45,221 nucleotides of DNA, from contig JACPHU010000025.1 of the NCBI GenBank assembly GCA_016188495.1, positions 1 through 45,221 on the forward strand, read 5' to 3'. Positions 2,105 through 45,038 of the stretch are shown one piece after another. Below the pieces are notes generated by a model that saw only the letters and a list, made by a program, of their open reading frames with translations, made no database searches and was not told the DNA's origin. Position numbers and translations under genes: made by a program. Origin of the DNA: Candidatus Uhrbacteria bacterium (GTDB lineage: Bacteria; Patescibacteriota; Patescibacteriia; UBA9934; GWF2-40-263). Position 1 is the stretch's first letter; every line of letters starts with the position of its first letter.

Positions 2105-5245
<3,141 letters not shown>

Positions 5246-42807: not shown

Positions 42808-42872
42808 GAAGGTTTTTCTCAAGTAGTAGAATAAAAAAAGATTTAATGAAAGATTCATCTATATTATTTATG

Positions 42873-43691
42873 TCCACACCTGAAACACTTTCTGGTCCAG
42901 ATCCTCGCGAGGCAGTACCTTCTTCTGTGGAGTTAGGGGGTGAAACAAGAGAAGGTCTGGAGGAAGGCAAAGGAGAGGTATTAGAACCGTCTCCAGAAGA
43001 AAAATTAGAAAAAATAGAAGAAAGAATTGAATCGCGAGAACAGAGAATCGAACAGGTGGTTGAGTCCATTGAAAAAACGAAAGCCGATTTGGCCGTGTTG
43101 AGAGAGAATCTGGGACTTCCTCCTTTGGAAGAGATCCCTTTCAGTATTTCTTCTGACGAGCGGTCTTTGGAGGATTTGCAAACAGAACATGACGCATTAG
43201 AAAAACAAAAAGAAGAACTCGTGAATCAGCAAGAAAAACACAAATTGATTGAAGAAGAAAAGGCAAAAATTTTACAAGAAAAAATAGACGAATTGTTCAA
43301 ACAGTTTGAAGGATTAGGCATCCAGGATTTAGAAAGTCTGTTCAACACAGGAAAAATGTCTAACGGACAGCCTGTGGAAAGCAAGTCCATGGGGTTATTG
43401 GATCCCGAAATGGCAAAATCTTTGGTTCAGGCGTTTAAAGAGGGGGTCAAACTTTTACCCAACATTCTCAAAGCTCTCCCAGATTTGTTAAAGAAATTTG
43501 ATGAAGATTTAACAAAAGAAGCGAAAGAACGTGTGGAAAAGAAATTAGAAGAAGAGAAAAAAGTTTTAAAACAAGAAGAGAAAAAAGAAGAACAGGGTGA
43601 ACAATCAGAAGAGTCAATCATCGGATTAAACGAATCAGAACAGGAAGGATCCGTTGTTGAACCGGTAAAAATAGAAAATCCTCACGTGTAA
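42873..43691 (+). CDS. acidic/charged coiled-coil hypothetical protein
   Basis: Long Glu/Lys/Gln heptad-like stretches; no signal peptide. Confidence 0.6.
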   Translation, partial: STPETLSGPDPREAVPSSVELGGETREGLEEGKGEVLEPSPEEKLEKIEERIESREQRIEQVVESIEKTKADLAVLRENLGLPPLEEIPFSISSDERSLEDLQTEHDALEKQKEELVNQQEKHKLIEEEKAKILQEKIDELFKQFEGLGIQDLESLFNTGKMSNGQPVESKSMGLLDPEMAKSLVQAFKEGVKLLPNILKALPDLLKKFDEDLTKEAKERVEKKLEEEKKVLKQEEKKEEQGEQSEESIIGLNESEQEGSVVEPVKIENPHV

Positions 43692-43742: not shown

Positions 43743-43842
43743 ACAGTCTTTATTCACATTGACGTTCTAACATTTTGGGTTTATAAAGGATCGGCGTGTG
43801 GATCTCCCATACGTTGTGCAAGTCCTTCTCAGGAGAGACGTC

Positions 43843-44115
43843 ATGAAGAAACTGCTCGTCGTTGCCCTGTGTCTTATGTCCACCACCTCCCTTTCCGTTC
43901 AGGCTGGACCCGCCACTGGGCGGGACCACAAGATCGCCGGCAAGATCGCGACCCACCTTTCTTCCAAGGAGAACGGGGGCGGAGTTCCCACCGAAAACGG
44001 AACCTGGTCCTGGCACAGCGATTTCATGGAGAAGCTGTGCGAGAGCGTTTCAAGTCCTTTTGGGGACGTTGCCTGTGACTACTGGACTGGCCACTCTGAA
44101 CGTCAGAAAAAATAA
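43843..44115 (+). CDS. small secreted hypothetical protein
   Basis: MKKLLVVALCLMSTTSLSVQA signal peptide, SD AGGAGA, promoter-like TTGACG-N17-TATAAA upstream. Confidence 0.65.
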   Translation: MKKLLVVALCLMSTTSLSVQAGPATGRDHKIAGKIATHLSSKENGGGVPTENGTWSWHSDFMEKLCESVSSPFGDVACDYWTGHSERQKK

Positions 44116-44240: not shown

Positions 44241-44354
44241 AAAAAAGTTTATAAATAAAAACAGCTATAAACATTATTTTAGGATCAATAAATTTATTTT
44301 TTAAATCATTTTATACAAAAATGACATTAAAATAAAATGAGTCGTCAGAGACTC

Positions 44355-44383
44355 TTGACAGAAATTCTATTTTCTGGTATCCT
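44355..44383 (+). promoter_or_regulatory. strong promoter
   Basis: TTGACAgaaattctATTTTcTGgTATCCT, 17-nt spacer. Confidence 0.65.
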
Positions 44384-44761
44384 ATACACACTGATTACTC
44401 AAGTAACGAGTCGTCCGGTGAGTGTACAAGATTGGCGAGCTTATCACGCCAAGATCGTGCATTGACCGGACCACTCACGTTGAGTGGTTTTTCGCGCCCA
44501 GTCCCGCCAGATAATGGCCGGGAGTGCGCGCTGAGTGCCAGAAATCCAGGGCAGGAAGAATATCGCCCTGGTCAGCTCGCATCGTTGCGGTCCTCCGCCG
44601 GAAACCTAAGTCGTCCGATGTGAAGGCATTCCTTCCATCAAACGCCTTTTGGGCAGTTGATGTTAATAGGACTCAGGTGGTCGCCGCCGGAATTTGCCGC
44701 TATGATCGGTTGAGCTGTTTGTAACAAACCTCATTTGTAACAAACCTCAAAGGAGGCTCTC

Positions 44762-44791
44762 ATGCGCCGACGTCCAAGCCAATTCGGCTAG
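44762..44791 (+). CDS. 9-aa micro-ORF MRRRPSQFG
   Basis: Perfect SD AAAGGAGG 6-7 nt upstream of ATG; terminator right after stop. Confidence 0.4.
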   Translation: MRRRPSQFG

Positions 44792-44799
44792 CGTCCCAA

Positions 44800-44831
44800 C
44801 CCCACGAAACTTCTTCGTGGGGTTTCTTTTT
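44800..44831 (+). terminator. rho-independent terminator
   Basis: CCCCACGAAacttcTTCGTGGGGTTTCTTTTT. Confidence 0.85.
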
Positions 44832-44837
44832 ATTCCC

Positions 44838-45038
44838 TCAGGGTAAATACCCCGTCAGCTTGCCTGTCGTGAGTAGATCGAACGGCTGCGTATTATTGCC
44901 TGAGCCTGTCTGCGGTGAACTTGTCGAATCCGTCGAAGGCTGCATATGAGCCCTTCGACTCCGGTTCGTCGAACGAACCTCCGCTCAGGGAATATGAAGC
45001 GTGATACCCCGTCCGCTTGCGGCGGGGTTATTCATTAC
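44838..45038. repeat. dispersed REP-like repeat, copy B
   Basis: Same 57-nt opening block as 15627 copy, then ...cgctcagggaatatgaagcgtgataccccgtc...ttcattac. Confidence 0.85.

Follow-up and report, generated by a model that had tools for sequence, protein, structure and literature searches.

Near the end of the window, by which we mean the whole stretch of 45,221 nucleotides analyzed here (the entire contig C10 of a 1.19-Mb genome of “Ca. Uhrbacteria”, G000), a promoter, a series of hairpins and a nine-codon reading frame follow one another between positions 44341 and 44831, which raises the question of whether the RNA, the ribosome translating it or the encoded peptide is what matters at this locus. 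The preliminary description had viewed it as a locus for a structured RNA that has a promoter, a micro-ORF and a terminator of its own and matches none of the known RNA families, and this view holds up. All of the elements that it named were found again in the window sequence, at positions that are right to within 2 nt. It had also placed AGTCGTCCGRTG at two sites, of which the first was confirmed at 44409, but the second starts at 44609 rather than at 44607. The features are as follows:

44355..44383, forward strand: promoter TTGACA-N17-TATCCT, with the -35 element at 44355-44360, the -10 element at 44378-44383 and a TG before the -10
44393..44415, forward strand: hairpin h1, GATTACTC / GAGTCGTC, shared with a paralogue and an orthologue, with one pair altered on both sides
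44413..44487, forward strand: insert specific to the window, a GTCCGGT...ACCGGAC hairpin plus CCACTCAcgtTGAGTGG-TTTTT, which the copies on contig C2 and in genome G004 lack
44502..44523, forward strand: inner part of hairpin h2, TCCCGCCAgataaTGGCCGGGA, with TCCCG..CGGGA at 44502
44542..44577, forward strand: hairpin h3, a conserved element AAATCCAGG-N16-CCTGGTCAGCT present in all three copies from genus g1
44718..44749, forward strand: perfect 2 x 16-nt tandem repeat TTTGTAACAAACCTCA, each unit of which ends in CCTCA
44749..44756, forward strand: near-perfect Shine-Dalgarno (SD) sequence AAAGGAGG, with the ATG 5 nt further on
44762..44791, forward strand: micro-ORF of nine codons, ATG...TAG, encoding MRRRPSQFG with a UAG stop, one of the micropeptides that end in [Y/F/H/R][P/T]SxF[G/V]-stop
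44798..44831, forward strand: intrinsic terminator with an 11-bp stem (44798-44824), a 5-nt loop and a T tract

Within the window-specific insert, GTCCGGT at 44413 pairs with ACCGGAC at 44465, enclosing TTGGCG at 44432 and CGCCAA at 44447. The CCACTCAcgtTGAGTGG segment at 44471, followed by TTTTT, resembles a terminator, yet it is absent from the list produced by the terminator scan. Further downstream, CCAGGGC at 44546 pairs with GCCCTGG at 44565, and the CCTCA at the ends of the repeat units could in principle pair with the GAGG of the SD. Taken together, these elements make up an autonomous transcription unit, with a promoter, a predicted folded RNA of approximately 440 nt, an SD, a micro-ORF and a terminator. 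The window ends 390 nt past the terminator, and positions 44828-45012 are occupied by a dispersed repeat, TATTCCCTCAGGG...CTCAGGGAATATG, the first approximately 24 bases of which match contigs C14 (twice), C24, C25 and C28 of the same genome and contig C16 of G004, the copy on C24 being alike over the full length.

The 444-nt transcript (approximately 44388 to 44831) has a predicted folding energy of -187.3 kcal/mol, as compared to -139.9 +/- 5.8 kcal/mol in dinucleotide shuffles (z = -8.2), and none of 100 shuffles was as low. Because of this fold and because homologues exist, the locus is more than a product of chance. The Rfam scan that had been proposed for it (Rfam 15, at gathering score and with permissive E-values) matched no family, and within the RNAs of the window, C2, G004, G007, G011, G027, G104, G269 and Pseudodesulfovibrio pelocollis there were just sub-threshold matches with chance E-values. 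ARAGORN reported two ordinary tRNAs and nothing else in the window, and eight related loci were likewise free of tmRNA matches. We rejected a tmRNA, since neither ARAGORN in these nine loci nor the Rfam tmRNA model found the tRNA-Ala-like acceptor domain, and since the predicted ORFs have an SD and an ATG or GTG rather than being entered without a start codon. Searches of open-access papers on Patescibacteria or CPR in connection with RNA or peptides turned up nothing on such an RNA. Elsewhere in the window, positions 2116-5236 match the 23S rRNA over 3121 nt; the model is 2925 nt long, and since the match is longer, this rRNA may have insertions of the kind often seen in CPR.

The comparative search suggested earlier did yield homologues, as BLASTN identified a diverged paralogue on contig C2 of the same genome and a copy in the congener G004. 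The latter is a positional orthologue with the same upstream genes, which code for a FemAB-type protein, an SDR, a 281-aa protein and a small secreted-type protein. In G001 and G003, by contrast, a convergent surface-protein gene comes directly after the SDR gene, and the genes for the 281-aa protein and the small protein are missing, as is the RNA. Relative to these two genomes, the gene for the 281-aa protein (42846-43691), the gene for the small secreted-type protein (43842-44115, MKKLLVVALCLMSTTSLSVQAG..., with an orthologue in G004 and no Pfam match) and the RNA are inserted together. The copies in the window, C2 and G004 have in common the promoter, all three hairpins (h1 to h3) and the motif AAATCCAGG-N-CCTGGTCAGCT, and in their alignment 91.5% of the structure cells pair, as compared to 30-46% when the partner is slid. 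A match to a known family or a structure that is not conserved had been named as arguments against the locus; no family was matched, and the 5' hairpins are kept in both the paralogue and the orthologue.

When 73 order-level and 384 class-level genomes were searched with a covariance model of the 5' domain, G000 and G004 were the only ones with convincing matches. Its matches in G052, G010, G346, G186 and G194 (E 2e-5 to 9e-3) look like chance combinations of a promoter and a hairpin and were discarded. The weak match in G010 (E 0.009) falls in a promoter-to-terminator stretch of approximately 400 nt with several hairpins (L046 1480-1930). It is conceivable, but improbable, that the RNA itself is functional as a large structured non-coding RNA, on which the micro-ORFs merely load ribosomes that protect or remodel it. 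The folding is strong in most copies (z = -8.0 in G004, -8.5 in G269 and -11.8 in part of G011, next to the -8.2 of the window) and the 5' domain is conserved within the genus, as such a role would imply. However, the excess over shuffles is weak in G009 (z = -1.2) and Pseudodesulfovibrio (z = -3.0), covariation in the three sequences is not significant, and the model detected no RNA similarity outside the genus in the order and class genomes, while the peptide is kept.

The G004 copy contains three micro-ORFs behind AGGAGG-type SDs, MRINRFAGHGW, VSVLYTSGFV and MRRHPSHFG (GTG starts are written as V), and the C2 copy, in which a module of the hairpin GAGCAGACAGACC..GGTCGAGTCTGC and the SD is duplicated, contains four, MKEYPSGFG, MRISFSSGVGW, MHRLHRLAKALG and VYGRYTSGFV. 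Since most of these peptides, when aligned at their stops, have [Y/F/H/R]-[P/T]-S-x-F-[G/V], we searched with the pattern SD-N-RTG-N-[W][S]N-NNN-TTY-GKN-TAR, which is independent of the RNA sequence. At the level of the order, the matches were MRYPSKFG in G007 and MGYPSGFV in G011, the latter in a GC-rich stretch of approximately 2.5 kb with a single promoter, no convincing long protein gene and the further micro-ORFs MSHLSGFV and MPGPCQCRLRDG. At the level of the class, they were MEYPSGFV in G104, MHTSGFV in G027 and, 300 nt apart in G269, the pair VKEFFTGFV and VKKYFTGFV, and a relaxed pattern retrieved VYPSHFG in G031 and MRDKFPVGFV in G009. A strict YPSxF[GV] scan of 85,462 GTDB genomes returned five records, namely “Ca. 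Uhrbacteria” UBA12432 (G011) and GW2011_GWC2_41_11 (G007), “Ca. Buchananbacteria” CG10_33_19 (G104), P. pelocollis SB368 and a Flavobacterium, the last of which was rejected as out of frame inside a gene.

The loci extend to “Ca. Uhrbacteria” relatives, to “Ca. Buchananbacteria” and a further family of the class, and to P. pelocollis, which is cultured. Each has the same type of promoter, and most are without a long protein gene, while DNA similarity between genera is undetectable. The promoters read TTGAC[AG]-N17 with a TATNNT-like -10 at 10 of 11 loci, one of which has TAAAGT, and TTTGTA-N17-TATAAT at the eleventh, in Pseudodesulfovibrio. There was no convincing match beyond the known loci when the pattern was run over 384 genomes of the phylum, and three of the loci, used as BLAST queries, had no match among phages or plasmids. 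We rejected a match in G649, which is antisense inside a gene, and those in G030, G032, G103, G109, G168 and G216, which overlap long ORFs, and left undecided two candidate members, MFPSHFG amid an ORF-crowded stretch in G065 and, in an AT-rich operon of G408, MSRSGFV, which lies between two of the genes. In G007 (L063, minus strand, 3172-2109), MRYPSKFG comes after a Cys-rich (CxxC) protein of approximately 240 aa without a Pfam match, apparently on one predicted transcript.

Across the loci, there are micro-ORFs, mostly of 6-11 residues, that end in this motif directly before the stop codon, and each RNA has one to four of them. When ORFs of 5-16 codons with a GGAGG-type SD are counted, the first eight loci contain 2.0 per kb in sense and none in antisense, against a background of 0.071 per kb (297 kb), and after leaving out one anchor per locus there are 9 such ORFs against 0.6 expected (P about 2e-8). 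The Phe, the [G/V] and the TAR were imposed by the search patterns at most loci and are therefore evidential only in those neighbours that no pattern retrieved. These are, in G031, MTYKYPSEFF, which starts with GTG, and MLPSHFL, and, in G009, MHHSQFG, which has a UGA stop; all three carry the motif. The case is thus strongest for the Pro/Thr and Ser residues, and position -5, which is free in the order and class patterns, is Pro or Thr in 7 of 11 intergenic matches (P about 2e-5). In the last five codons of 15 representatives, which are not fully independent of one another, there are 166, 180 and 357 pairwise differences at codon positions 1, 2 and 3, the invariant Phe uses both of its codons, and Ser is encoded by AGC as well as TCN. 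The residues at unconstrained positions, the ORFs that were not retrieved and the third-position changes together argue that selection acts on the peptide. The peptide is kept with synonymous codon changes across unrelated RNAs, as expected of the conserved micropeptide gene family that we propose, and we consider it very probable that this family of micropeptide-encoding RNAs is real.

The pattern by itself proves nothing, since its counts over the whole class are no higher than those of a reversed-pattern control, as they would also be if the micro-ORFs were chance combinations of an SD and an ATG within an unrelated structured RNA. That they are is very improbable, as the matches kept after screening are in frame, intergenic, behind a strong promoter and often clustered (those inside genes were dropped by position, not by peptide), and the neighbours that were not retrieved carry the motif. 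The run CGC CGA CGT near the start of the window ORF, which had brought attenuator leader peptides to mind in the preliminary description, could, with a terminator after the ORF, belong to an attenuator or leader in which Arg codons act as the sensor for a gene just past the end of the contig. This idea is unsupported and we regard it as exceedingly improbable. The Arg run is found in the window and the G004 orthologue only, and the conserved part of the peptides is the C-terminus (PSxFG, YPSGFV). The next gene in G004, G009, G027 and G031 codes for a DUF11 surface protein and is convergent, and therefore beyond the control of the RNA, so that a co-oriented cognate gene is lacking downstream. 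Furthermore, the gene order exists without the RNA in G001 and G003, and the relatives usually have several such ORFs and share no gene that these could control.

Because the promoter, the SD and the peptide are conserved between genera and the sequence of the RNA is not, the peptide would most likely be the functional product, and we give a probability of roughly 0.5 to the reading that the released peptide, not the nascent chain, is what acts. The strong sigma-70-type promoter would then drive a long folded RNA, and the conserved product made from it would be the 9-residue MRRRPSQFG. The micro-ORFs would be translated, and their shortness and strong SDs may allow ribosomes to re-initiate on them without leaving the RNA, by analogy with the 7-codon mccA. 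The fold would chiefly stabilize the message, such RNAs would yield peptides efficiently, and the released (formyl-Met) peptide would act in trans. Reiterative translation is possible for micro-ORFs of 2-8 codons, and 71, 30 and 6 rounds have been estimated in vitro for mccA genes of 7, 11 and 15 codons (PMC6495379). Among the neighbouring genes examined, no transporter, modifying-enzyme or receptor gene is common to the loci, and the neighbours vary (DUF11 surface protein, recR, miaB/rluA-type genes, metK, rnhB, hipBA). This counts against a released peptide, as does the length of the RNA, which greatly exceeds what nine codons require. The conserved residues adjoin the stop, which together with an excess of UAG fits a role in termination at least as well.

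Such a role is the foremost alternative explanation, though one that we think rather doubtful. The nascent SxF[G/V] C-terminus at the peptidyl-transferase centre would slow RF1-dependent release in cis, whereby ribosomes would be held on the RNA or its folding switched. The motif is anchored at the stop while the length of the peptide ranges from 6 to 10 residues, and the peptides are too short to exit the tunnel. UAG accounts for 14 of the 18 micro-ORF stops as compared to 7 of 34 in the window genes (UAG:UAA 14:3 against 7:22), a comparison in which the window genes are the sole reference and base composition varies among the loci. The loop of a strong hairpin encloses several of the stops, strikingly so in copies such as GGGTTTCGTG-TAA-ACGCAACCC, but this is not a general rule (mean percentile 0.63, P = 0.04, 21 ORFs), and the same test showed no unusual degree of unpairing at the SDs in the predicted folds. 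Arrest peptides, moreover, usually control a gene next to them, and the loci have no such gene in common.

In size and layout, the loci most resemble mccA, the microcin C precursor gene, which is likewise an autonomous gene that has <10 codons and a strong SD, lies on a terminated RNA and is of a length suited to reiteration (PMC6495379). However, MccA precursors end in Asn and are paired with mccB, whereas the present peptides end in Gly or Val and sometimes Phe or Leu, and one RNA may carry several different ORFs. With a C-terminal Asn in 0 of the 18 main-group peptides, whose last residue is always G, V, F or L, and no mccB (ThiF-like) domain among the Pfam-scanned neighbouring proteins at the loci examined, we rejected a microcin C cluster. 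In the stop-anchored motif, the closest resemblance is to arrest peptides. Leader and arrest peptides (TnaC, ErmCL, amino-acid attenuators) are short ORFs in structured RNA with conserved residues near the stop, but the present loci differ in having no regulated downstream gene, repeated ORFs and a free-standing transcription unit. E-peptides such as MRLFV, which are encoded within the 23S rRNA, provide erythromycin resistance; they too are very short and SD-driven with a hydrophobic C-terminus (F-V), but the present ORFs lie outside rRNA and have a different consensus, and a link to macrolides is not indicated. The Rfam families tmRNA, OLE, GOLLD and ROOL are also long folded bacterial RNAs, and tmRNA has a short reading frame as well, but the loci searched gave no Rfam or ARAGORN match. 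Dual-function sRNAs (e.g. PMC5521070) similarly combine a structured RNA with an encoded peptide, but here the peptides are mostly 6-11 residues long, there are several per RNA, and the peptide rather than the RNA is kept.

The genetic arrangement thus appears, provisionally, to be new in kind, being neither a tmRNA, an attenuator, a microcin C cluster nor a curated Rfam family. Tentatively, and at slightly less than even odds, we suggest that these free-standing, fast-evolving folded RNAs of approximately 0.4-2.5 kb represent a new element of ultra-small uncultured bacteria that was sporadically acquired elsewhere. It would carry arrays of strong-SD micro-ORFs for stop-anchored micropeptides of one (perhaps two) families, and would hold or reprogram terminating ribosomes or release peptide in bulk. 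The sequence comparisons point to a family of tiny-peptide genes in distant bacteria that appears not to have been described. Genes of 6-11 codons fall under every annotation threshold, and conserved micropeptides on unconserved folded RNAs would, if true, mean that a whole class of gene products in bacteria has been missed. In the Patescibacteria (“Ca. Uhrbacteria”, “Ca. Buchananbacteria”), which are poorly understood, they would offer a testable RNA/peptide system, and since one copy belongs to a cultured sulfate reducer, P. pelocollis, its expression is directly measurable.

This copy encodes MNTYKNEPNI, MSQYPSGFV and MQRIRAPDQS on a promoter-to-terminator unit of approximately 410 nt, and P. 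pelocollis is alone among 349 genomes of the Desulfovibrionales in having an in-frame match. The RNA is adjoined by an IS110 transposase and a hipBA pair, which, together with the single occurrence in the order, suggests that the locus was acquired horizontally. At L150 9827-12176 and L128 2197-2538, the IS110 transposase gene is placed between a gene for a HipB-like HTH protein and hipA. Three micro-ORFs picked by eye end in N-[D/E]-[P/T]-x-[I/L/P]-stop and may represent a second micropeptide family, namely MAKNDTFP in G027 (L098 641-667), MRIVSFERMLGNDPFL in G104 (L096, minus strand, near 2634) and the MNTYKNEPNI of P. pelocollis (L128, minus strand, near 1874).
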